Assembly: GCA_001784175.1 (NCBI GenBank)
Contig: MFPR01000001.1
Span: 62,001-126,000 of the forward strand
DNA length: 64,000 nt
Direction: 5' to 3'
Origin: Candidatus Lindowbacteria bacterium RIFCSPLOWO2_12_FULL_62_27
GTDB taxonomy: Bacteria; Lindowbacteria; 2-12-FULL-62-27
A model generated the notes under the pieces. It did not search any database. It saw nothing but the letters and a program-made list of their open reading frames with translations, and was not told the DNA's origin. Below, one piece after another: positions 17,844 through 32,249 of this stretch (position 1 is its first letter; each line of letters opens with the position of its first letter). The position numbers and the translations under genes were made by a program.

Positions 17844-19661
17844 ATGGCGACATTGCCCAAACAGCGGCTGAGTTCCAGGGTCCTGCAGATTTCCCTGACC
17901 GTGGCGCTCGCCAGCGTGATTTTCTACGGTCTTTCTGTATTCGCGATCGAGTTCCAGTCCGGTCTCAAGGACGCGCGGATGGAGATGATCAACCGCCTGA
18001 AGGAACTGACGGCGGCGTTCAACCGCGAAGTCCAGCGGCGCCAGACCCGGGTCCGGCTCCTCACGGAAAATCCCCAGGCCTTCGACGCCGCCGTCCAGTC
18101 GATCCGCCGCAGCAAAAAGCCGGAGGCCTTTTTCGGCGACGGCGTCCGCTTCTATCAGATTCTGCATCAAACGGAACTCGAAGCCGGCGGCGCCACGTCC
18201 CTCGAGTTCGAGTCGCTGCTGACCGGGTCGCGCCACGGCGTCCTCAAATTGGTGGAGGGCGTCGACACCGACGCGCGGGCGGGACTGCTCTTTGAGGCCC
18301 ACGCCATGGCGGCCAACCGGGTCCAATCGATCCGGGTCCTCTGGAACGTCGACGCGCTCCTGCCGGCCGTCGATTGGATGTCGAGTCAGCGGGTGGAGGG
18401 GCTGGCGCTGGTCAGGGAAAATGGAAAACCCCTGTGGCTTGCCGGCCAATGGCCCCGGGGCGAGGCGGGGCTTGCGGTTTCAGCGGCGCCTTCGGAATTT
18501 TCCTGGGACGGAAAAACCTGGATCCTGGTAACCGAGGAAATTTCGATCTTCTCCGACCCGGTCCACCTTCGGGCGATCGCGCCCAAATCCCTCCTCTACG
18601 CCCAGGCTTGGCGAATGAGCCGGCGCTTCCTCAACCGCGTCTTCGTCCTCCTCGCCATCGGCCTCGCCCTCGCGGGCCTCCTCGTCGTCGCCACGCGGCA
18701 GGTCATGAAACCGCTCGATGAGGTCACCCGGGGCGTCAACCGCATCGCGGACGGCGATCTCGATACCGTGCTCGAAACATCCGGCGATGACGAGATCGCC
18801 TTTCTCTCGGGACAACTGAACGACCTCGTCCACCGGCTCAAGGTGAAGGAGCAGAGCGTCCAGGCGCATATCCAGCTTCTCAAGGAAAAAAACGACGAGC
18901 TTCAGGCGCTGAGCGACAAATTGAAGGAGGCCGACCGGCTTAAGGATCAGTTCCTGGCGATCCTCAGCCACGAGCTGCGCACCCCTCTGACCGCGATCCT
19001 CGGATACGCCGAGCTTTCCCTCGAAGGCATCTACGGCCCGTTGACGCAGAAACAGACGGAGATCGTCACCTTCATCCACTCCAACGGCCAAAAACTCCTG
19101 ACCCTCATGGAGGACCTCCTCGACATCGCCAAGATCCGCGCGGGAACCATCGAAATCAACATCGAGCCCCTCGATCCTTACGACCTCATGGCCGACATCC
19201 GCAAGTACGCCGAAAATTCGGTCCGGGCCAAATCGGACGTCCGGTTCGTCGAGGACATTCACGCCGGCCTGCCCGGGATTCGGACCGACCGCGTCAAACT
19301 CGAACAAATCCTGACCAACCTCCTGTCGAACGCGATCAAGTTCACCGAGCGCGGCCACGTGGCCCTGTCGGTGACGCGCGAGGGAGACAGCCGCGTGAAG
19401 TTTACGGTGGAGGACACCGGCATCGGAATCGCCCCGGCTCACCTGCCGAAAATTTTTGATCCCTTTGTCCAGCTCGACGCCGGCGTCCGCCGCCGGTACG
19501 GTGGAACCGGCCTGGGATTGACCATTTGCAAGAGTCTGGTCGATAAGTTGGGTGGGCGGATCGAAGTCGAAAGCATCCCGGGCAGCGGAAGCCGGTTTTC
19601 CGTGTGGATGCCCGTGGACAGCCGGCCGGCGCATGATTCTTCGGGAGGACAGGCTGCATGA
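17844..19661 (+). CDS. Membrane sensor histidine kinase (extracytoplasmic sensor, HAMP, HisKA, HATPase)
   Basis: This 605-aa two-component kinase has transmembrane segments at about residues 14-34 and 265-285 that bracket a periplasmic sensor domain of unknown type. The HAMP domain (RQVMKPLDEVTRGVNRIADGDLD) is followed by a coiled coil, the HisKA phosphoacceptor LSHELRTPLTAILGYAE with His376, and the HATPase N box (LTNLLSNAIKFT) with G boxes (DTGIGIAP, YGGTGLGLTICK). It overlaps the next gene, a response regulator, by 4 bp, so the pair forms one signalling module. The sensed signal is unknown. Confidence 0.93.
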   Translation: MATLPKQRLSSRVLQISLTVALASVIFYGLSVFAIEFQSGLKDARMEMINRLKELTAAFNREVQRRQTRVRLLTENPQAFDAAVQSIRRSKKPEAFFGDGVRFYQILHQTELEAGGATSLEFESLLTGSRHGVLKLVEGVDTDARAGLLFEAHAMAANRVQSIRVLWNVDALLPAVDWMSSQRVEGLALVRENGKPLWLAGQWPRGEAGLAVSAAPSEFSWDGKTWILVTEEISIFSDPVHLRAIAPKSLLYAQAWRMSRRFLNRVFVLLAIGLALAGLLVVATRQVMKPLDEVTRGVNRIADGDLDTVLETSGDDEIAFLSGQLNDLVHRLKVKEQSVQAHIQLLKEKNDELQALSDKLKEADRLKDQFLAILSHELRTPLTAILGYAELSLEGIYGPLTQKQTEIVTFIHSNGQKLLTLMEDLLDIAKIRAGTIEINIEPLDPYDLMADIRKYAENSVRAKSDVRFVEDIHAGLPGIRTDRVKLEQILTNLLSNAIKFTERGHVALSVTREGDSRVKFTVEDTGIGIAPAHLPKIFDPFVQLDAGVRRRYGGTGLGLTICKSLVDKLGGRIEVESIPGSGSRFSVWMPVDSRPAHDSSGGQAA

Positions 19662-20503
19662 GAGTGCTGGTGATCGACGACGATCTGCACATTCAGCGGA
19701 TCGTGGAGGACCGGTTGAAGGCGGAGAATTTTGAAATCCTGAAAGCCTCGGATGGAATCGAGGGCCTGCGGATGGTCTATGATTTCCATCCCGACGTCGT
19801 CCTCCTCGACATCATGATGCCCACCATCGACGGCACGGCCGTCCTTCACTGCATCAAGAAAGACGACAAGATCAAGAACATCCCCATCATCATGATGACC
19901 GCCAAACGCGAACGCGCCGACGTCATGCAGGCCGCCGCCGCCGGCGCCGCCGAATACATCGTCAAGCCGATCGATTTCAGGCAAATGGTCAAGAAAATCT
20001 ATGAGGTGACGCACGCCGCGCCGCCCAAACCCAGGGAAAAGGCCGGACCGCTCAACATCAAGGCCATGGCAACCGACCTCGCCAATCTCTCTTTCGAAAT
20101 GGAGGCCATCGCCGCATCCGCCGGCATCAAGGTCGAGCGACCCCTGCCGGAGACGAAGGGCAGCGGACTGAACATCAAGGTCGACACCGCCCCCGGCGGC
20201 GTGGCGTGCCTGCAATTCGGCGGCGCGCTTCACACAGAGGACGCGGATTCGATCCGCAGCGAGTTGACACGGCTCATTGCCGCCAACGTCTCCAAATTCG
20301 TGGTCGACATCAGCGACATCCAGAGCCTGGACCTCACCGAGGTCATGATCCTCAAGGACGTGATGAACCTCATCTCCCGCAACCAGTACGCCGCCCGGCT
20401 GGTCGAAACCGACGGCAAGCGCCGCCGGTTCCTCCGCCAGTGCAACCTGCATCTCGAGTATACCCTCTTTGACAGCCGCGACGAGGCCCTCCGCTCCTTT
20501 TAG
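19658..20503 (+). CDS. Response regulator with C-terminal STAS domain
   Basis: This 281-aa protein starts with a receiver domain (VIDDDLHIQRIV; phosphoacceptor Asp51 in LLDIMMP; conserved MTAKR and Lys in VKPID). A linker of about 45 residues leads to a STAS-like domain (about 165-275) with VACLQFGGALHTEDADSIRSEL and FVVDISDIQSLDLTEVMIL. STAS domains act in partner-switching cascades such as SpoIIAA/RsbV. The Ser/Thr usually phosphorylated in such antagonists appears to be within IQSLDL, but this is uncertain. There is no DNA-binding domain, so output is probably protein-protein. It is cognate with the upstream kinase. Confidence 0.88.
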   Translation: MRVLVIDDDLHIQRIVEDRLKAENFEILKASDGIEGLRMVYDFHPDVVLLDIMMPTIDGTAVLHCIKKDDKIKNIPIIMMTAKRERADVMQAAAAGAAEYIVKPIDFRQMVKKIYEVTHAAPPKPREKAGPLNIKAMATDLANLSFEMEAIAASAGIKVERPLPETKGSGLNIKVDTAPGGVACLQFGGALHTEDADSIRSELTRLIAANVSKFVVDISDIQSLDLTEVMILKDVMNLISRNQYAARLVETDGKRRRFLRQCNLHLEYTLFDSRDEALRSF

Positions 20504-21495: not shown

Positions 21496-22839
21496 ATGGC
21501 GGCGCCAACCGTTGATCAGATCAAGAAAATGCGGGAGGAGTATCTCCTCCCGTCGACCATGACCTACTTTGAGCGGCCGGTCAACATCGTCCGCGGGCAG
21601 ATGCAGTACGTGTACGACGACCAGGGCAGGAAGTACATGGACGCCTTCAGCGCCGTCGTGACCATCAGCGTCGGCCACTGCCATCCCGATGTTGTATCCA
21701 AAATCCAGAGGCAGGTCGGCCAGCTCCAGCATATGACCACGCTTTACTATCATCCCAACATTGTGCAGTACGCGAAGAAAATGCACGAGATGGCCGGCGG
21801 CGGCGACCTCAAGGTCAGCTTCTTCACCAATTCCGGCTGCGAGGCCAATGAACTGGCGGCCATACTCGCCAAGAACCACACCAAGCAGCAGGAATTCATC
21901 GCCCTCCGCCATTCCTTTCACGGCCGCACCCTCATGGCCATGACCCTGACCGGCCAGTCCTCCTGGCGCCACTCCATGCCCTACGTCTTCGGCGTGACCC
22001 ACGCGCCCAACGCCTACTGCTATCGCTGTCCGCTCAAGCTCAAGTACCCGTCGTGCGGCGTCGCCTGCGCCACGCAGGTCGAGGACATCATCAAGTACAA
22101 CACGTCCGGCCGCATCGCCGGATTCATCGCTGAGCCCATCGCCGGATTCGGCGGCGTCATCCATCCGCCCAAGGAATATTTTCCCATCATCGCCGACATC
22201 GTCAAAAAACACGGCGGCGTATACATCTCCGACGAGGTCCAGACCGGATTCGGCAGAACCGGGAAACACTTTTTCGGCATCAGCCACTGGGGCGTCAAGC
22301 CCGACATCGTGACGATGGCCAAAGGCATCGGCAACGGCGTGCCCCTCGGCGGCATCATCACCACGCGGGCCATCGCCGAGTCGATGCGCGGCAAGGTCCA
22401 TTTCAACACGTATGGCGGCAACCCCGTTTCGATGGCCGCCGGACTGGCCGTCCTCGAGGTCATCGAGCGGTACAACATGGTCCGCAACGCCGACTCGGTC
22501 GGGACCTACCTCAAGTCCCGGCTGCTCTCGATTTCAAACCGCCACCCTGTGATCGGCGATGTGCGCGGGCTGGGACTCATGCTGGGCGTGGAACTCGTGA
22601 AAAACCGGAAGACCAAGGAAGTCGCCCCGAAGGAAACTTTGCGGCTCATGGAGCTGTGCAAGGACCGGGGTCTTTTGATCGGCAAGGGCGGGATGGCCGG
22701 CAACGTCGTCCGGATCAAACCTCCGATGTGCGTCACGCGGAGAGACGCCGACTTCATCGTCGGCGTCCTGGACGAGTCTCTCGGCGTCATGGAAAAGGAA
22801 TTTCGGATCCGACGCCCCGCCGCTTCGCGAAAACGATAA
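21496..22839 (+). CDS. Class III PLP aminotransferase (AGXT2/beta-alanine type)
   Basis: This 447-aa fold type I aminotransferase has FFTNSGCEANELA (phosphate-binding region), ISDEVQTGFGRTGKHFFG with the PLP ring Asp, and the Schiff-base Lys276 in TMAKGIGNG. Overall the sequence follows the alanine-glyoxylate aminotransferase 2 / beta-alanine-pyruvate group. It most likely moves the amino group of beta-alanine or a related omega-amino acid to pyruvate or glyoxylate. The ATG at 21496 is chosen for its GGAGGAG ribosome site; the frame stays open further upstream inside the amidohydrolase gene, but that part is not homologous. Confidence 0.87.
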   Translation: MAAPTVDQIKKMREEYLLPSTMTYFERPVNIVRGQMQYVYDDQGRKYMDAFSAVVTISVGHCHPDVVSKIQRQVGQLQHMTTLYYHPNIVQYAKKMHEMAGGGDLKVSFFTNSGCEANELAAILAKNHTKQQEFIALRHSFHGRTLMAMTLTGQSSWRHSMPYVFGVTHAPNAYCYRCPLKLKYPSCGVACATQVEDIIKYNTSGRIAGFIAEPIAGFGGVIHPPKEYFPIIADIVKKHGGVYISDEVQTGFGRTGKHFFGISHWGVKPDIVTMAKGIGNGVPLGGIITTRAIAESMRGKVHFNTYGGNPVSMAAGLAVLEVIERYNMVRNADSVGTYLKSRLLSISNRHPVIGDVRGLGLMLGVELVKNRKTKEVAPKETLRLMELCKDRGLLIGKGGMAGNVVRIKPPMCVTRRDADFIVGVLDESLGVMEKEFRIRRPAASRKR

Positions 22840-23351
22840 ACCGGAGTCTCCCCCTGGCCTTCTGCCTCGCCCTCGCGGCTGCCGGGTGCGAGGCCGAGCC
22901 TCCATCGGGCGGTGTCGGCGCTGGCGCCCCCGCGCCGGCCACGGCCCGTGGCGCCGCATCCTCGACCGGCCACGAGCCCGCGCTTTCGGTCCGCGCGGAC
23001 GGGGCGGCCAGAAAAATGTTCCTCCAAGGTCTGCGCGCCATCCAGCGGCGTGATTACCCGGCGGCCACCGCATTCTTTCAGCAGGCGGAAGAACGCCACA
23101 GCCGGCGCTCAGGCGCGCCGGACGAATTCATCTACGGATGCCTCTATTACATCGGCCGGTGCCGTGAAGGCACACTCAGTTTCGAGGAAGCTCGCGACAT
23201 CTACGCGCATGTCCCGGCCGAAAGCGCCTACCGGCCGTGGGTGGAACTCCGCATGTCCGCCATGTCCCAGGATTCCGACGGCGACGGCTACATCGACGCA
23301 TGGGAAGACGCCGAGGGAACCAATCCGATGAACCCACTGGCGCACCCCTAG
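22728..23351 (+). CDS. Lipoprotein with C-terminal thrombospondin-type-3-like calcium motif
   Basis: This is a secreted lipoprotein. LPLAFCLALAAAGC is a clear lipobox, with the lipidated Cys about 43 codons from the GTG chosen here. The mature part has an Ala/Pro-rich linker, a helical TPR-like middle (FLQGLRAIQRRDYPAATAFFQQAEE) and DSDGDGYIDAWEDAEGTNP at the end, a TSP3-like Ca2+ loop. The start is uncertain: GTG 22728 lies inside the aminotransferase gene and gives a long basic n-region, and no ATG or TTG occurs nearer the lipobox. Its stop TAG is followed directly by the ATG of the first cyclase gene, so it belongs to the cyclase operon and could be an envelope partner. Confidence 0.65.
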   Translation: MRHAERRRLHRRRPGRVSRRHGKGISDPTPRRFAKTINRSLPLAFCLALAAAGCEAEPPSGGVGAGAPAPATARGAASSTGHEPALSVRADGAARKMFLQGLRAIQRRDYPAATAFFQQAEERHSRRSGAPDEFIYGCLYYIGRCREGTLSFEEARDIYAHVPAESAYRPWVELRMSAMSQDSDGDGYIDAWEDAEGTNPMNPLAHP

Positions 23352-26300
23352 ATGGCCCGGCGCCCCGCGCTCCCGGGACAGCGCGCCGCACAGATCGCGG
23401 CCCTTAAAAAGCATCTTCGCACCCTCCTCATCGGACTTGCCATCGGCGTGGTCAGTGGTGTGATGGTGATGGTCCTGGGATCCTTCGAGGAGGGATTTGT
23501 TGCGCGCACGGAACTCTTGCTCCTGGATGTCCGCTATCGAACGCGGCCCCACATTCCCGTCCATCCGGACGTCGCCCTGATCAACTACGACGACGCCTCC
23601 CTCGCGCTCTTCGGAGGCTGGCCATGGCCGCGGCACCGGCAGGTCGCGCTCGTGACCGTGCTCGATCTCTACGACGCCCGGGCTGCCGGCTACGACGTGT
23701 TTTTCTCGGAACGAAATGACATCATCGTCATGGATGAGCGGCTCCGCCAGTTTGTCCGCAGCGACGAGGTCGCCAAGGGTCGGCCGGCGCCCGAACGCGT
23801 GTCCCGTGTGCTCCGGACCGCCATCCGCGACTACGACCGCGAGTTCGAACGGGCCATCGCGAAGTCCGGGAACATCTATCTCGGATATTTTGTCCAGGAG
23901 CCCGACAAGACCGTCGCCGTCGGGGGACTTCCGGCGATCCAGAAATATGTCGAGGAAGACAAGAAATCGCCCACCTATCCCCACGAGGCCCTGGAATCGC
24001 TCGCGCCCCACACCATCGCGGCCACACCCGACTTGGAAAAACATATTTTCAAAATGAGCCGCGTCGTCCCGCCGCTGTCCTTCCATACGCGCGCGGCCCG
24101 CAGCGCGGGATTCGCGCAGATCGTCAAGGACCTCGACCACACGGTGCGGCTCTACCCCATGTTCATGTACTACGACGGCAAAATCCATCCGTCGATCGGG
24201 TGCGTCATGGTGGCCAGCGTCACCGGCGTTCCGCTCGACCGCTGGGTCATCAAGCCCGGCGAATACGTGGAACTGCCCGACGCCAAAGTCCCGGGCGAGA
24301 CCAACCCCGTCACCATCCGCATTCCCGTCAACGAAAACGGGCAGATGCTCATGAACTGGGCCGCCAAATTCGACGACGTCTTCCTCCACGTGTCCTTCCG
24401 GCTCATCTCCGAATACTATGCCTATCACACCGCCAAGGGCCTGGCGCGAAATTATCCGGCGGACCCCGCGGCCTTCGGGGCGATCTACGCGGACATCGTC
24501 AGTTCCATCGATGAGGAGCAGATGGTGACCGAAGAGGAATCCCGGCGCATCGCGGGCGAAATTGCCCTCGCGCACATCGCAACGCCCATGTTGAAAGCCG
24601 GCGCGACGCACGCCGACATCCTCTCCCGGCTCAAACTTCCCGACGGGGTCGCGGCGCCGGAGCAGGTCCTCCAGGCCGTCGACATCGCGTTGCAAAAATC
24701 CGGCGGCGCGGCCTTCGACGCCGCGTGGCAGGCCGAGATCGAGCGGAATGTGAGCTGGTTTGTGGCCAAAAATCGGTTGAACGAAGTCGAGCCTCTCTTT
24801 TTTCCGCCCGCACGCACCGCGCTCTGGCAGGGCAAACAGACGGCATTCTCTCCACTCGACCTCGAGAACAAGATTTTCATGATCGGACTCACCGGCGTCG
24901 GGACCATCGACCTCAACCCCATGCCGTTCGAAAGCGTTTCGCCCATGGTCGGCATGCACTCCAATGCGCTCAACACCATGCTGGCCCACACCTTTCTCAA
25001 GTTCCCCAAGGACTCATGGCGCTATCCGCTCGACATGGTCTTCGCGATCGTGACCGCCGTCGTCGGAGCCCTCACGTCGCCCTTCATCGGGTTTCTCGTC
25101 GTGACCCTCATCGTCGCCGGATACAGCTACGCCGTCTGGTGGGCCTTTGCCGCGCACGGCCAGTGGATCCAGTGGCTGGAGCCCGTCATGGCGATCTCGC
25201 TGACCTACATCGGCGTCGTCGTCTACCATTTCATCCAGGCCCGGCGCGAAAAGGGCAAGGTCCGGGCCATCTTCGCCGCCATGGTCTCGCCCGACGTCCT
25301 GAAATACATGGAGGAACATCCGGAAAGCTTTTCGCTCACGGGTGTCCGGAAGGCCGGCACGACCTTTTTCTCGTCCGTCGAGCGTTTCGGAAAGGTCACC
25401 GCGGGCGTCGCGCCGGACGAACTCGGGGGAATTCTCAGTTATTATCTGACGCCGACCAGCGAGATCATCATGGACTATCAGGGGTACATCGACAAGTATG
25501 AAGGCCACGTCATCATGGCCGATTTCGGCGTCCCCATCGACGACCCCGGGCACGCCTGGAAGTGCTGCTACGCCGCGATCGAGCAGCAGCAGGACATCCT
25601 GCCGTTCCAGTTTTTCGTCAAGGCGCGCTACGGCGTCGACGTCTTCGTCGCCATGGGCATCAATTCCGGTTACGTCTCGGCCGGAAACATGGGATCGGAA
25701 AAGAAAATGCAGTACACCGTCATGGGTGACGCCGTCAATATGTCGGCCCGGTTCAGGCCCGCCAACAACATCTACGACACGCGCATCATCGCCGGCGAAC
25801 CGACGCTCCCCTTCGCCGGTGACTGCCTGGAACTCCGGCTCCTCGACAAACTGCTGGCCAAGGGCAAAACCAAGCCGGCCACCATCTACGAAATCCAGGG
25901 ATGGAATCCCAAGTCCTACCTCGAACTCAAAAAGGACGCGCCCGTTCCGCCGTCCCTCTTGTCACGATGGTCCAAGTGCCCGGCGGAAAAGATATTCGGC
26001 TATCACCGGTTCTGGCAGCAGAAGGAAAAGGATTTCGCGCATCCGCTGATTCCGAAAATCCGCGAGTTCTTCGAGTCCCAGCTTGCGGTCGCCGAGGAAA
26101 TGATCAAGGTGGAGGGGCGGTCGGAAGTGCGGAAATACTGCACGGAACTCTACGGCGTCCGCGACGAGGCCGCCATCGTGCTCGGCAAGAAGGTGGACGG
26201 GATGGCGGCGCCCGGAAAACCCTGGGATGTGATTCTGGACAAATGGATTTCGACCGCGTCGGAGATCCACCGCGCGCTCGAGGAAAGCCGGCAACTGGCC

Positions 26301-26831
26301 GGGCAGAGCCCCGAGATTTACAAGGCCTACGTGTCCTCGTTTTCCCGCGCCGCGACCTTGACCAACAAGCTCGAGACCCTGAAGGCCCGGCTGGCGTTTC
26401 ATGCCGAAACGGAATCGGTGATGGAACGATTCATCGTCGACATGCACGAATCCATTGAGAAAACCGCCGAAGCCGGCGAATCAGCGCCCGCCCCGGACGG
26501 GACCGAACTCGAAACCAAACGCGCCGCCTACCGCTCCGCCGTCCAGGGCATCTACGACAGCCTGGCGGCCAAACCCGCCGAGTACCATGAGATGATGTCG
26601 CAGGTGGGCTCGGTCACCGAATCCCAGAAAAAGGCCCGTGAGATTTTCGTTGAGGGCGTGAACCTCCACTGGGAGCGAAAATGGGACGAATCGATCGAGA
26701 AGTTCCGCGCCGTGCTGGACATCATGCCGGCGGATGGCCCGTCCAAATCCTACATCGAACGCGTCCACGGATACAAAACCGACCCGCCCGGCGACAAGTG
26801 GCAGGGCGAATTCGTGCAGAAGAAGAAATAG
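23352..26831 (+). CDS. CHASE2 class III cyclase subunit A, lacking both metal-binding aspartates
   Basis: This 1159-aa membrane protein has an N-terminal transmembrane helix (about 22-44), a large extracytoplasmic CHASE2 sensor (VALINYDDASLALFGGWPWPR), about three transmembrane helices (560-635), a class III nucleotide cyclase domain (about 650-840) and a helical TPR-like tail. Both catalytic Asp positions are lost: Ser675 replaces the first (FFSSVERF) and His719 the second (DKYEGHVI). The transition-state residues are intact: Asn796 and Arg800 in GDAVNMSAR. The adenine-recognition pair Lys715/Thr789 is also present. Alone it should be inactive. It resembles the C2 half of mammalian adenylate cyclase and is probably completed by the next gene, 2 bp downstream. 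Confidence 0.92.
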   Translation: MARRPALPGQRAAQIAALKKHLRTLLIGLAIGVVSGVMVMVLGSFEEGFVARTELLLLDVRYRTRPHIPVHPDVALINYDDASLALFGGWPWPRHRQVALVTVLDLYDARAAGYDVFFSERNDIIVMDERLRQFVRSDEVAKGRPAPERVSRVLRTAIRDYDREFERAIAKSGNIYLGYFVQEPDKTVAVGGLPAIQKYVEEDKKSPTYPHEALESLAPHTIAATPDLEKHIFKMSRVVPPLSFHTRAARSAGFAQIVKDLDHTVRLYPMFMYYDGKIHPSIGCVMVASVTGVPLDRWVIKPGEYVELPDAKVPGETNPVTIRIPVNENGQMLMNWAAKFDDVFLHVSFRLISEYYAYHTAKGLARNYPADPAAFGAIYADIVSSIDEEQMVTEEESRRIAGEIALAHIATPMLKAGATHADILSRLKLPDGVAAPEQVLQAVDIALQKSGGAAFDAAWQAEIERNVSWFVAKNRLNEVEPLFFPPARTALWQGKQTAFSPLDLENKIFMIGLTGVGTIDLNPMPFESVSPMVGMHSNALNTMLAHTFLKFPKDSWRYPLDMVFAIVTAVVGALTSPFIGFLVVTLIVAGYSYAVWWAFAAHGQWIQWLEPVMAISLTYIGVVVYHFIQARREKGKVRAIFAAMVSPDVLKYMEEHPESFSLTGVRKAGTTFFSSVERFGKVTAGVAPDELGGILSYYLTPTSEIIMDYQGYIDKYEGHVIMADFGVPIDDPGHAWKCCYAAIEQQQDILPFQFFVKARYGVDVFVAMGINSGYVSAGNMGSEKKMQYTVMGDAVNMSARFRPANNIYDTRIIAGEPTLPFAGDCLELRLLDKLLAKGKTKPATIYEIQGWNPKSYLELKKDAPVPPSLLSRWSKCPAEKIFGYHRFWQQKEKDFAHPLIPKIREFFESQLAVAEEMIKVEGRSEVRKYCTELYGVRDEAAIVLGKKVDGMAAPGKPWDVILDKWISTASEIHRALEESRQLAGQSPEIYKAYVSSFSRAATLTNKLETLKARLAFHAETESVMERFIVDMHESIEKTAEAGESAPAPDGTELETKRAAYRSAVQGIYDSLAAKPAEYHEMMSQVGSVTESQKKAREIFVEGVNLHWERKWDESIEKFRAVLDIMPADGPSKSYIERVHGYKTDPPGDKWQGEFVQKKK

Positions 26832-26833
26832 AG

Positions 26834-29800
26834 ATGGCCGAAAAAGAGAAGGCGCGGAAAGTTCCGCCGGTCAAGGTCGCGATCATTGGTCTTACCTGCG
26901 CCGCCGCCGTCGGCGTCCTCACTTGGCTCGGCGTCTTTCAGAAGGTCGAACTTGAGCTGAACAAGCAGCGGTACGTTCACCGGCCGGCCATCGACATCGA
27001 CACGACCATCTTCACGATCGACATCGACGATCCCTCCATCGACCAGATCGGACGCTGGCCCTGGACTTGGGACCGGCACGCCGTCATCCTCGACCTCGCG
27101 TGGCTCTACGACTCCCGCCGCGTCGCATTCGTCGAACCCTATTTCAGCGAGCCCGGCCCCATCACTGTCCAGACCCCGCAGGCCCGGCAGATCGCGCTCA
27201 GCCTCTCGCAGTTGGCCCAGGGCAAGACCGACGTGGACTACCGGACGGAGCTGGAAGGGCAGATCCCCGACTTCAACCGCCGGTTCCTCAAGGCGGTCGA
27301 GCGGTTTCCCGCCACCTTCATCGGAAACAGCTTTGCCATTCCTGAAGGCCCGGCCGCGGAGGATGTGCGGAAGATCCGGCAGATGTCCGAGTCCTACAAG
27401 GCGCATTACTCGCTCGCGAAAAAACAGGCCATCGCCTCACTCGACTCCTGTTCCATTCTCCGGCCCGATCCCGCCTCCCTCCTCGTCGCGGCGGACATCG
27501 TGCCCGTCACGGCCGACCTCTCTCGCCGCATCGCCGGCGCGGGATTCATGCGCATCATCCAGGACGTCGACGGCGTCGTCCGCCGCACGCCCCTCCTCGT
27601 CTGGTACGACGGCCGCGCGCATCCGAGCATCGCGCTCTCCATGGCCGCCGATTATTTTGGATGCCCTCTGGACAGGATTCGCATCCATCCCGGAAAATAC
27701 GTCGAGATCCCCGGCCGGGACCGCACCGTCCGCGTGCCCATCGACCGCAAGGGCAACCTGCTGATCAACTGGGCCGGAAAATATCAGGACACCTTCTTCC
27801 ATCTCCCCTACATCGTCATCGCCCACCATTACGCGCATCGGCTGGCCAAGAGATTCGTCCGGCAGTTCACCCTGGGGCTCGACAACCCGCAGGACGTCAT
27901 GCAAAAAATGGCCGAGTTCCTCACGCGCCAGCGCCTCGTCCCGGCCGAGGACGTGGAGCGTACCACGCAGGAGATCATTCTCGTGTGGCTGATGGATTTC
28001 TTCATCGACCGAAACGCCCCCTACGAGGCCTTTCTGGCCAACACCGGGATTGAGCACAGTGACGGCCTGAGGTTCTGGTGGGACCAGTTGTCCGTCAACA
28101 AGCGCACCGAGGACATGCTGCGGTCCGGCCAGGACCCCAACTACTCCGCCATTCTGGTCAGCCTCGGCCTCAAGGACACGGACATCTACCGGGACGGCGT
28201 CCGGCAGACGGCGTTTTTCTTCCGCAACGGCAAGATCAACGACGTGCGGCCCCTGATGTTCATGGAGCCGAGCACGATCGACGTGAGCGGCGTCGAGATG
28301 AAATTCAGCCCGATGGACCTCACCGGCAAAACCGTCTTTGTCGGGCTCACCGCCACCGGCCTGAACGCCTTCAACCCGATCCCCTACCAGCAGCGATACC
28401 AGATGTTCGGCATGATCCCCAACGTGTACAACACCATCGTCACAGAGCAATTCTTGCGCGCCCAGTCGCCCTGGATGCAGTACCTCTACATCATCCTCTA
28501 CGCGCTCGCCGTGACCTGGATCGTCCTCCATGTGCGGCCCCTCATGGGATTCGGCGTGACGGTCCTGACCTCGGCCGTCCACATCGGCGCGGCGTGGCTT
28601 CTCTTCATCTTCGCCGGCGTCGCCATCCCGGTCTTCGCGCCAGTCCTGACCGTCGTGATCTGTTACGTGTCGGCCATGCTGTACCGCTACGTGCAGGAGC
28701 AGCGGGAGCGGCAGAAGGTGCGGAACATGTTCGGCGCGATGGTGTCGCCAGAGGTATTGAAGATGATGGAGACGAAGGGCGTGGCGCTGACGGGCGAGAA
28801 GCACGAGGCGACGATGTTTTCCTCGGACGTGTCCGGATTCACGACCATCTCCGAGGGCGTCACCGCGCAGGAGCTGGCCGACATCCTGAACATCTACCTC
28901 ACGCCGATGAGCAACATCATCATGAACTTCGACGGCTTCGTCGACAAGTACGAGGGCGACGCCATCAAGGCCGATTACGGCATCCCCATCATCGACCCCA
29001 ACCACGCCTGGAAAGGGTGCCTCTCCGCGCTCCTTCAGCAGGAGGACCTCCGCGTCATCCAGCGGCTGCTCCTCCTCAAGTACGGCGTCAAGATCACCGC
29101 GCGGATGGGCGTCAACACCGGCGTCGTCGCCGCCGGCAACATGGGCTCCGAGAAAAAAATGCAGTACACCGTCATGGGCGAAGCCGTCACCCTCGCCGAG
29201 GAACTCGAGCCGATCAACAAACTCTACGAAAGCTGGATCGCCATCGGCCCGCTCACCTACGAGAAGGCGAGGGACTACGTCGAGGTCCGGTACTTGGACC
29301 GCGCCCTCATGGGTCCCTCCGCGCACCCGACCGAAGTGTATGAGCTCATGGGCTGGAGGCGGGAAAAGTTTCTCGAGCACTGGAACGGCAGGCCGGTCCC
29401 GCCGCTGTTCATCGAGGCCTGGCGGAAACTGACGCCGGAAAAAATTCTCGGATACATCTATTACTGGGACGAAAAAAAATTCAATGACACGCCCTTTTAC
29501 CGCGACCTCCGCGGGCTCTTTGACAAACTCGCGCCTTTGTCGATCGAAACCGTCAAGATGAACGACATCGCCGGGGTCCACTCCCTGCGGGTGGAACTCG
29601 CCGAGCTCGACAAGGCGATCCAGGCCTACGACAATCTTCTCTCCGGTATGACGCTCGACCGCATCTCGCAGTCGGAACTGGACGACTTCAAGGCCCAGGA
29701 GGCGAAGGCGGCCGAGGACTGGCTGAAAACGCTGTGGGGGTGGAAAGTCAAACTCAAACAGAACCAGTTCGCCGTTCAGTACCTGCAGGGCAAAATCCCG

Positions 29801-30301
29801 CACGAGAATTACGAGGAACTCCTCCGGTTCGTCGATACGCACCAGAAGCGTGTCGAGTGCTGCATCAAGCGCAGCTCGTTTCCCAAGCCCGAAGACACCG
29901 TCGGATGGGAGTTTGCCGTTCACCTCAAGTCCCTCGTGGTCGACGGGAAATCCGGCGTGGACCCCGCAGCCGCCAAGGCCAAATCCGAGGAGCTGCTCGG
30001 GAAAAGCCGGGAACTGGTCGCGGCCTTTCTCGAAAAACTCCCGAAACGCGCCGCCGAATTCCACGAGTTCATCGCCGACCACTGCATCGTTCCCGCCTAC
30101 AAGTTCAAGGTCCGGGACCGGTTCGACGAGGCGCGCAAGCTCTATCTGAAAATGGACTGGGACGCCGCCGAAAAGGCCTTCCAGGCGGTCCTCGAGATCG
30201 ATCCCAAGGACGGCCCGGCGACCAAATTCATCGAACGCATCGGCCACCTGCGCAAACACCCGCCGGCGCCCGATTGGAACGGAGACTGGGCGGAGGAATA
30301 G
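26834..30301 (+). CDS. CHASE2 class III cyclase subunit B, lacking the transition-state Asn/Arg
   Basis: This 1155-aa paralogue of subunit A has the same layout: transmembrane helix (13-33), CHASE2 domain (FTIDIDDPSIDQIGRWPWTW), three transmembrane helices (about 549-621), cyclase domain and TPR-like tail ending DWNGDWAEE. It keeps both metal Asps, Asp665 (FSSDVSGF) and Asp709 (DKYEGDAI). The transition-state positions are substituted: Thr786 for Asn and Glu790 for Arg (GEAVTLAEELE). This is the exact complement of subunit A, as in the C1 half of mammalian adenylate cyclase. An A-B heterodimer would hold one complete active site, with ATP the likely substrate. ATG 26834 is 2 bp after the subunit A stop; an earlier in-frame ATG lies inside the preceding gene. 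Confidence 0.92.
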   Translation: MAEKEKARKVPPVKVAIIGLTCAAAVGVLTWLGVFQKVELELNKQRYVHRPAIDIDTTIFTIDIDDPSIDQIGRWPWTWDRHAVILDLAWLYDSRRVAFVEPYFSEPGPITVQTPQARQIALSLSQLAQGKTDVDYRTELEGQIPDFNRRFLKAVERFPATFIGNSFAIPEGPAAEDVRKIRQMSESYKAHYSLAKKQAIASLDSCSILRPDPASLLVAADIVPVTADLSRRIAGAGFMRIIQDVDGVVRRTPLLVWYDGRAHPSIALSMAADYFGCPLDRIRIHPGKYVEIPGRDRTVRVPIDRKGNLLINWAGKYQDTFFHLPYIVIAHHYAHRLAKRFVRQFTLGLDNPQDVMQKMAEFLTRQRLVPAEDVERTTQEIILVWLMDFFIDRNAPYEAFLANTGIEHSDGLRFWWDQLSVNKRTEDMLRSGQDPNYSAILVSLGLKDTDIYRDGVRQTAFFFRNGKINDVRPLMFMEPSTIDVSGVEMKFSPMDLTGKTVFVGLTATGLNAFNPIPYQQRYQMFGMIPNVYNTIVTEQFLRAQSPWMQYLYIILYALAVTWIVLHVRPLMGFGVTVLTSAVHIGAAWLLFIFAGVAIPVFAPVLTVVICYVSAMLYRYVQEQRERQKVRNMFGAMVSPEVLKMMETKGVALTGEKHEATMFSSDVSGFTTISEGVTAQELADILNIYLTPMSNIIMNFDGFVDKYEGDAIKADYGIPIIDPNHAWKGCLSALLQQEDLRVIQRLLLLKYGVKITARMGVNTGVVAAGNMGSEKKMQYTVMGEAVTLAEELEPINKLYESWIAIGPLTYEKARDYVEVRYLDRALMGPSAHPTEVYELMGWRREKFLEHWNGRPVPPLFIEAWRKLTPEKILGYIYYWDEKKFNDTPFYRDLRGLFDKLAPLSIETVKMNDIAGVHSLRVELAELDKAIQAYDNLLSGMTLDRISQSELDDFKAQEAKAAEDWLKTLWGWKVKLKQNQFAVQYLQGKIPHENYEELLRFVDTHQKRVECCIKRSSFPKPEDTVGWEFAVHLKSLVVDGKSGVDPAAAKAKSEELLGKSRELVAAFLEKLPKRAAEFHEFIADHCIVPAYKFKVRDRFDEARKLYLKMDWDAAEKAFQAVLEIDPKDGPATKFIERIGHLRKHPPAPDWNGDWAEE

Positions 30302-30351: not shown

Positions 30352-30918
30352 TTACAGGATTTCCCGGTAAACTTCCTCCCGTGGATTCGGAATCACAACC
30401 TTGTTGACCAGCAGGCCCTTCTCGGCGATGATCTCCGCGCCCGCGTCGATCGCCGCGTTGACGTCGTCCAGCGAGCCGCACATCGTGACGAAGGCCTTTC
30501 CGCCCAAGGCCATCGCAAGGCGGATTTCAATGAGGTCGACGTCCGCCGCCTTCACGCTCGCGTCCGCTGCCTCGATCAGGGACGCGACGCTGAAACTCTC
30601 CAATATCCCCAGCGCCTCCGTGTCCCGAACGCTCGACATGCCCCGGATCGCCGGCACGACCTTGTCGTGGACGTTCGGAATGATGAAATCGTCGATCAGC
30701 GTGTAGTCGGCCGTTTCCCGGCCCGCACCCACCGCGCGCTCCACCGCGCCGGTCGAGCCCGTCACCAGGACCATGTACTTGCCGGAACAGATGGTCCGCG
30801 ACAGCAGAAGCTCCACGTTCCCGCTCTTGAGCATCGTGTCCGCCGTCTTGAAGCCGGACGCGATGCTCGATAGTTCAATGATGCCGATCGCCTCCCGCAT
30901 GGGAGATGTCTCAGCCAT
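30352..30918 (-). CDS. pduT: PduT-like tandem-BMC shell protein with iron-sulfur site
   Basis: This 188-aa microcompartment shell protein contains two BMC domains (about residues 8-90 and 100-185) and forms a pseudohexameric trimer. It matches PduT closely: LSSIASGFKTADTMLKSGNVELL, SRTICSGKYMVLVTG and MALGGKAFVTMCGSLDDVNAAI. Cys44 in TICSGK corresponds to the PduT cysteine that holds a [4Fe-4S] cluster at the pore; counted from the alternative start Met7 it is Cys38, the PduT numbering. PduT is thought to pass electrons through the shell to PduS, encoded 2 bp upstream. No other shell protein gene is in the window. Confidence 0.92.
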   Translation of the reverse strand: MAETSPMREAIGIIELSSIASGFKTADTMLKSGNVELLLSRTICSGKYMVLVTGSTGAVERAVGAGRETADYTLIDDFIIPNVHDKVVPAIRGMSSVRDTEALGILESFSVASLIEAADASVKAADVDLIEIRLAMALGGKAFVTMCGSLDDVNAAIDAGAEIIAEKGLLVNKVVIPNPREEVYREIL

Positions 30919-30920
30919 GG

Positions 30921-32249
30921 CTACTCCCTCTCAATCACAATATCGCCGTTCACGGATGTGACCCGGCCCGAAATCGACGCGTGGATCGGCGCGCCCATCT
31001 GCCCTTCCGGCATCACCGCCACCGCCTGCCCCCGCTTCACGCGGTCGCCCGGCCGCACCGCCGGCGCCGCGGCTTGGCCGACATGCTGCTTGAGCGGCAA
31101 CGTCACGCGGTCCGGCTGATAGTTCGTCTCGACGTACGGCGCGGGCACGTCCCATTCCGTAAGGCCGAGCCGCCGCGTCAGGCGATCCAGCGGCAGCCGG
31201 CGAAACTGGAACATCGGATGCGGCTTGTATCCTTTGCGTGGGTTGAAGTCCTGCGGTTTCGCGCCTTCCTTGATTTTTTCGGCCCTCGTTGACCAACTGA
31301 TGATGTGCGGGTCCAGATCCTCGGGGCACGCAAAAAGCCCGCAGACGCCGCAGTGCACGCAGGCCAGCGCAAAATCGCTCTCGAGCTTCCAGCCGCTGCC
31401 GGTCAGCCCGAGCGTCCGCATCACGCGGTGCGGCTCGATCGGGTGGCCGATCAGATATCGCGGACAGAACTCCGTGCAGTAGGAACACTGGTCGCACGCC
31501 GATTTGCCGATGCGATTAAAGGCCTGCGGCTTTCTCGATTTTTTTTGTTCAAGGTAATGCCCGATGGGCACCGCGATATACCCCCCGCAGGATTTGGTCA
31601 CAATGTCTTCAAGATCGTACGTGAGCTTGCCCATCATCGCGCCGCCGTTCAAAAACGCGCATTCCGGAAACGTCAGCCCCCCCGCAAGATCCACGATCTC
31701 GCGCAGCCGCACCCCCACGGGCACTTTCACCGTCATCGGCCGCCGCACCGCGCCGGCAATCGTCAGATATTTTTCCGTGACCGGCTCGCCGCTCGCGTCG
31801 GCCCGATAGACGTTGAGCAGTGTCTCCACGTTCGAAACGACGCAGCCGACCTGGAGCGGAATTCCGCCGGGCGGAATCACGCGGCCGGTGACCTCATACA
31901 CGAGCACAAACTCGTCCCCGGCGGGATAGTAGGAGCCCATGAGAAACAGCTCCACGCCCGGACGCCCGCGCAGAACCTTCTCGAACGCCTCGACCGCGTC
32001 GTGCGCCTTCTTCTTGAGCGCAATCACGCCCTTGTCCGCCCCGACCTGCCGCATCACCAGCTCCACGCCCTTGACGATCTCCTCCGCCTTCAGGCGCATG
32101 ACCTCCTTGTCCTTGTACAGAAGCGGCTCGCACTCGGCTCCGTTGGCGATCACATATTCGGCCTTCGCGTTGTATTTCACGTAAGCCGGAAACCCGGCCC
32201 CGCCGGCCCCGACCACCCCGGCGGTCTTCACTTGATCAACGAGCGCCAT
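30921..32249 (-). CDS. pduS: PduS-like (RnfC-type) iron-sulfur flavoprotein
   Basis: PduS is a corrin/electron-transfer oxidoreductase related to RnfC, associated with microcompartments. The 442-aa protein has VVGAGGAGFPAYVKYNAKAE (NAD/FMN-binding glycine-rich segment), NGAECEPLLYKDKEVM, and two [4Fe-4S] motifs: CDQCSYCTEFCPR and CVHCGVCGLFACPE. The C-terminus (GDRVKRGQAVAVMPEG..ASISGRV) is a lipoyl-like sandwich hybrid motif. It is tightly coupled to pduT and has its own leaderless-type promoter. It could recycle cobalamin or feed electrons into a compartment whose enzymes are encoded elsewhere. Confidence 0.92.
   Translation of the reverse strand: MALVDQVKTAGVVGAGGAGFPAYVKYNAKAEYVIANGAECEPLLYKDKEVMRLKAEEIVKGVELVMRQVGADKGVIALKKKAHDAVEAFEKVLRGRPGVELFLMGSYYPAGDEFVLVYEVTGRVIPPGGIPLQVGCVVSNVETLLNVYRADASGEPVTEKYLTIAGAVRRPMTVKVPVGVRLREIVDLAGGLTFPECAFLNGGAMMGKLTYDLEDIVTKSCGGYIAVPIGHYLEQKKSRKPQAFNRIGKSACDQCSYCTEFCPRYLIGHPIEPHRVMRTLGLTGSGWKLESDFALACVHCGVCGLFACPEDLDPHIISWSTRAEKIKEGAKPQDFNPRKGYKPHPMFQFRRLPLDRLTRRLGLTEWDVPAPYVETNYQPDRVTLPLKQHVGQAAAPAVRPGDRVKRGQAVAVMPEGQMGAPIHASISGRVTSVNGDIVIERE

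Follow-up and report, generated by a model that had tools for sequence, protein, structure and literature searches.

Two tandem CHASE2 receptor cyclases with complementary half-sites: a probable obligate heterodimeric adenylate cyclase in Candidatus Lindowbacteria

Heteromeric class III cyclases and their bacterial relatives

Heterodimeric cyclases have been described for higher eukaryotes (PMC8815786). In the mammalian transmembrane adenylate cyclases the C1 half supplies the metal-binding Asp residues and the C2 half the substrate and transition-state residues, leaving one site active and the other degenerate (PMC4174876). The two genes described here, A and B, show the same distribution of residues; however, the mammalian halves are joined in a single chain that also has two six-helix membrane domains, whereas A and B are separate and each codes for a CHASE2 domain of its own. 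Soluble guanylate cyclase (sGC) resembles the pair in that separately encoded homologous receptor subunits share one site, the Asp residues being on alpha and the beta homodimer being inactive (PMC3591389), but it is a cytosolic, GTP-specific, eukaryotic enzyme with a haem-NO sensor. In chytrids, RGC1 and NeoR are two full receptors that form an obligate heterodimer; the catalytic domains of RGC1 and RGC2, unlike those of A and B, retain all catalytic residues, and heterodimerisation is thought to be enforced elsewhere (PMC8815786).

Bacterial class III cyclases are considered to homodimerise, and a fused dimer was unknown in bacteria according to a 2022 review (PMC9552081). CyaB, Cya2, Rv1625c and the single-gene CHASE2 cyclases have the same fold as A and B, and the single-gene CHASE2 enzymes also the same domain order, but each chain carries a complete residue set and each homodimer two sites. 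The nearest bacterial case found in our literature search is GcyB/GcyC of Rhodospirillum centenum, also encoded by adjacent genes and called putative guanylyl cyclase subunits; they are described as non-catalytic, and a reciprocal half-site pattern is not reported in the part of that source available to us (PMC4681086). No bacterial heterodimeric class III cyclase or complementary CHASE2 cyclase pair was found in the open-access literature, a search that leaves out most subscription papers. The half-site heterodimer as such is known, while its bacterial, two-receptor and repeatedly evolved form appears to be new.

The locus and the allocation of catalytic residues to A and B

Gene A (23352..26831, + strand, 1159 aa) and gene B (26834..30301 from the ATG at 26834, + strand, 1155 aa) are separated by 2 bp in the window, by which we mean the whole 64,000-nucleotide stretch of Candidatus Lindowbacteria DNA that was analysed. 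An earlier note on this DNA had described them as tandem CHASE2 cyclases, and the open reading frame coordinates together with matches above cut-off to both CHASE2 (PF05226) and Guanylate_cyc (PF00211) in each protein bear this out; no NCBIfam model matched either one. Both have an N-terminal hydrophobic helix followed by CHASE2, further hydrophobic segments and a class III cyclase domain, after which each continues for a long C-terminal stretch, the hydrophobic segments being found near residues 25-43 and 570-630 of A and 17-35 and 553-620 of B. Both thereby show the order that defines a CHASE2 receptor cyclase, namely a helix, an extracytoplasmic CHASE2 domain, helices and a cytoplasmic catalytic domain. 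CHASE2 is interrupted by an insertion in each subunit: in A its first part (23463..24407, +; residues 38-352) is separated by about 140 residues from its second (24837..25070, +), and in B the two parts lie at 26903..27793 (+; residues 24-320) and 28274..28510 (+). The catalytic domains (A, 25251..25907, +; B, 28709..29359, +) were both modelled in the class III cyclase fold with a pLDDT of 83; the folds nearest to both models are 6fht, 3r5g and 2w01, and superposition on 3r5g gave Z 25.0 for A (187 aligned residues, 1.9 A) and Z 24.8 for B (188 aligned residues, 1.7 A). On the PF00211 matches and the predicted fold, A and B are both class III nucleotidyl cyclases. The two models resemble human AC5 C1 to a similar degree, and the matches listed include no C2 chain; the fold search therefore cannot separate a C1-like from a C2-like subunit.

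It is the catalytic residues that distinguish the subunits. A has lost both metal-binding Asp residues, with Ser675 (25374..25376, +) at the first position (D1) and His719 (25506..25508, +) at the second (D2), as well as the phosphate-binding Arg, replaced by Ala767 (25650..25652, +). It keeps the transition-state residues Asn796 to Arg800 (25737..25751, +), the KGK motif Lys837-Gly-Lys839 (25860..25868, +) and, from the alignment, Lys715 and Thr789. B is the reverse: Asp665 (28826..28828, +), Asp709 (28958..28960, +) and the phosphate-binding Arg757 (29102..29104, +) are kept, whereas the Asn and Arg positions are occupied by Thr786 and Glu790 (29189..29203, +) and the KGK lysines are absent. 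Lys705 and Thr779 also remain in B, so that its unused substrate pocket has decayed only in part, a point against the heterodimer reading given below. HMMER alignments with the solved cyclases CyaB (3r5g) and Cya2 (2w01, 6fht) place the same columns opposite their catalytic residues. All eight residues on which the earlier note had based its proposal of complementary losses are confirmed by the alignment, and none is supplied from a shifted position, which would have refuted it. Moreover, the split is clean for four residue classes and not merely for the two then considered (the metal Asp residues and Asn/Arg), the phosphate Arg and the KGK lysines being divided likewise. In the AC5/AC2 structure the phosphate Arg is Arg484 of C1 and the phosphate-binding lysine is Lys1065 of C2, and the allocation of the Arg to B and of the lysine to A agrees with this. 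Thus the residue pattern of a C1/C2-type heterodimer, with one half having the Asp residues without Asn/Arg and the other the opposite, is met, and the full set of metal, substrate and transition-state residues at a dimer interface is found only in the A-B pair, not in A or B alone.

We consider it very likely that A and B together make up a membrane-bound class III adenylate cyclase that is an obligate heterodimer, with one active site and a degenerate second one. B would take the C1 role, with the two metal-binding Asp residues and the phosphate-binding Arg, and A the C2 role, with the substrate-specifying Lys715/Thr789, the transition-state Asn796/Arg800 and the KGK lysines. Because these half-sites are complementary, the interface would hold one complete ATP site and one degenerate site, in which His719 of A would face Glu790 of B. 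In class IIIb enzymes specificity of the ATP type goes with a Lys/Thr pair, and we take Lys715/Thr789 of A to be such a pair; it is on this account that the product is inferred to be cAMP. Mammalian adenylate cyclases have an Asp at the base-specifying partner position, where A has Thr. Two eukaryotic assignments were also tried and are not met: A/B is not a transmembrane adenylate cyclase of that type, consisting as it does of two genes with one catalytic domain each, nor a soluble guanylate cyclase, which would call for an HNOX sensor and guanylate-specific residues, as only CHASE2 and cyclase domains were found and Lys/Thr are at the specificity positions. The physical heterodimer, its catalytic activity, the cAMP product and the control of one site by two CHASE2 domains all remain inferences, since there is neither a model of the complex nor an assay. 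Weak activity of A or B homodimers is not excluded, as catalysis with non-canonical residues is known among class III cyclases.

The source genome, a draft in 44 contigs that shares its family with a genome carrying the label Candidatus Lindowbacteria nzgw232, codes for 13 cyclase domains (11 besides those of A and B) and 30 cyclic-nucleotide-binding domains; no CHASE2 proteins other than A and B were detected in it. Another of its contigs (C30; L051:6651-10550, +) carries a 1300-aa open reading frame in which AAA and TPR regions come after two class III cyclase domains, a layout resembling that of mammalian soluble adenylate cyclase. Its first cyclase domain has both Asp residues and Glu at the Arg position, whereas in its second D1 is Asn, and Asn, Arg and KGK are retained; the protein is thus a bacterial example of a fused and partly complementary pair. 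Immediately upstream of A is a lipoprotein-like open reading frame with a TSP3 repeat (22656..23351, +, start uncertain), whose stop codon directly adjoins the ATG of A and which is therefore probably co-transcribed with it. A homologue of this reading frame precedes A in one other genome (L053) but was not found at the more distant pairs. Homologues of a HAMP histidine kinase and of the response regulator fused to a STAS domain that follows it (17844-20503, +) are also near the pair in L053. Downstream, two adjacent open reading frames (30352-32249, -) look microcompartment-shell-like and PduS/RnfC-like by eye from their translations. Outside its own family the pair has no conserved neighbours, and the surrounding genes therefore give no clue to the signal that is sensed.

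Conservation and origin of the pair

Eight genomes, that of the window and seven others (L053, L054, L055, L056, L057, L058 and L059), were found to carry adjacent homologous pairs, always in the order A then B and with gaps of less than about 30 bp. The split is identical in all eight: A is without D1, D2 and the phosphate Arg, and B without Asn, Arg and KGK. The search for adjacent CHASE2 pairs that the earlier note had proposed thus gave complementary ones in all eight genomes, the opposite of the fully catalytic, randomly changed relatives that would have told against it. The residue at D1 of A varies over the eight genomes (S/A/A/W/M/M/M/A), as does that at the phosphate-Arg position (A/T/A/S/T/S/M/T), but D2 is His throughout, and there is no variation at the Lys, Thr, Asn and Arg positions or at either KGK lysine. 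The B subunits all retain the two Asp residues and the phosphate Arg; their Asn position is Thr or Ala, and their transition-state Arg position is Glu in every case. That each subunit has its own half-site fixed while the other half drifts is the mark of selection acting on the pair. The likeness to mammalian C1/C2 drawn in the earlier note therefore holds for the half-site split, while the Ser it had singled out at the first Asp position, as in mammalian C2, is not conserved and must be regarded as incidental. As the window comes from a draft assembly in 44 contigs, random drift or an assembly error in one genome could in principle have produced the changes; this can practically be dismissed, being refuted by the recurrence of the pattern in eight genomes whose proteins are about 37-72% identical to those of the window, with both frames intact. 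Genomes with pairs are mostly metagenome-assembled drafts, and labels such as Nitrospirae and Dependentiae, which two of them bear, are those of the submitters; the Dependentiae label is doubtful, because that genome (G276) falls in the same family (f133) as another, G134. In one genome (G002) the assembly breaks within gene B, whose parts lie at the ends of two contigs (L043 and L048; C16 and C69).

Single-gene relatives in Verrucomicrobiota, Lentisphaerota, Planctomycetota and other groups retain the full residue set; 72 of the 109 distinct catalytic domains retrieved keep D, D, N and R, and nearly all the exceptions are members of pairs. In a tree built with the diagnostic columns excluded, A and B form clades (support 100/100 and 100/99, respectively) that are sisters (100/97), with intact single genes outside. 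This topology is accounted for by one tandem event in which an intact homodimeric CHASE2 cyclase was duplicated, with half-sites then lost reciprocally and the two copies inherited jointly. Identities among the A proteins track those among the B proteins (r = 0.88), as expected under co-inheritance.

Within a subunit class the CHASE2 halves share 32-41% identity, against 22-29% between A and B of one genome, which is compatible with two different inputs. An AND-gate formed by the two CHASE2 sensors is possible, but it is an untested inference. A variant compatible with the heterodimer does without the gate, one CHASE2 domain being a mere scaffold or a regulator binding at the degenerate site instead, and we hold it to be a serious possibility, if not the one we would choose: the sensor function of CHASE2 is unknown here, His719 and Glu790 are invariant in the eight pairs as if the second site had kept a role of its own, being perhaps locked or binding something, and the degenerate sites of heteromeric cyclases have been proposed to be regulatory (PMC3591389). 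The lower identity of CHASE2 between A and B, however, speaks against this variant, as it fits two distinct sensors.

Complementary pairs in other bacterial families

Three more complementary tandem families, two with CHASE2 (seven and five genomes) and one with GAF domains, are found elsewhere in the tree. Family 2 comprises adjacent CHASE2 cyclases in seven genomes of a phylum different from that of the window pair (family 1). Its first gene has M or L at D1 and A, S or H at D2, has lost the phosphate Arg and keeps Asn and Arg; its second keeps D, D and R, with D or E at the Asn position, His at the Arg position and KGK lost or altered. Family 3 consists of CHASE2 pairs in five genomes with gaps of 0-11 bp. 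Its A-type subunits have S or A at D1, E or still D at D2, and keep Asn, Arg and KGK, and its B-type subunits keep D and D, with I or T for Asn and E or D for Arg; close relatives of family 3 occur in four genomes from a neighbouring family, where one gene carries a full residue set. Family 4, in the same phylum as family 2, includes at least eight pairs of GAF-domain cyclases 0.9-1.7 kb apart and in reversed order. Here the A-type has Glu at D1 with D2 mostly kept, and the B-type has E or D for Asn, has mostly lost KGK and has K, E or S for Arg, which is retained in two; judged by these residues the split of family 4 is partial. Families 3 and 4 are both less completely split, in that some A-type subunits keep D2 and some B-type subunits keep Arg, which weighs against the heterodimer reading. 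Such tandem GAF-cyclase pairs, with the B-type first, several copies per genome and partly complementary, were seen at L159, L160, L161, L162, L163, L164 and L165, and A-type subunits without D1 but with D2, a possible intermediate of the split, at L199 and L200. Among the pairs examined there was no clean example of adjacent CHASE2 genes with both copies complete; one pair taken as an ordinary-tandem control (G019, L156) proved to be complementary too.

In a joint tree A and B are sisters within each of the four families (99/96, 96/70, 99/83 and 95/65), with intact genes between families; the pairing is only moderately supported for families 2 and 4 in this shorter alignment, and for family 2 it reaches 100/98 in a longer one. 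A single clade for the A-type subunits of families 1 and 2 was rejected (p-AU 3e-160), as was one for all A-type subunits of the four families (p-AU 2.4e-5). The earlier note, which supposed that the asymmetry had been reached independently in a bacterium, was right but too modest, since the tree and these tests indicate at least four such events. If each of six sites (D1, D2, phosphate Arg, Asn, Arg and KGK) survives in one copy only, 2 of the 64 possible allocations follow the half-sites, and by this crude estimate two fully split families would arise by chance with a probability of about 0.001.

These repeats bear on the view that A, B or both are dead cyclases kept as regulators, binding ATP or titrating other cyclases. 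Each subunit does lack residues for homodimer catalysis, and the 11 other cyclase domains of the genome are possible partners; decay, however, would not fix complementary half-sites in eight of eight genomes and in independent families, always adjacent, and we regard such pseudoenzymes as improbable. The heterodimer first proposed in the earlier note is instead supported, within the limits of sequence evidence, by the aligned columns, the two additional residue classes, the eight concordant pairs, the duplication tree and the independent repeats.

More broadly, we think it probable that bacteria have repeatedly arrived at obligate heterodimeric class III cyclases, by at least four separate tandem duplications with CHASE2 and GAF sensors, with the same division of the site and with two sensors jointly controlling it. 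An asymmetric design so far known mainly from animals would then have arisen repeatedly in bacteria as two receptor genes, and these families would be natural replicates of the step behind eukaryotic C1/C2 and sGC alpha/beta. Intact single genes lie immediately outside the families and a stage with a partial split is preserved, so that the transition from a homodimer to an obligate heterodimer can be traced and tested. In the source organism, the A/B pair would represent a natural two-receptor, one-output design, and the 30 cyclic-nucleotide-binding domains of its genome are possible receivers of the A-B signal.
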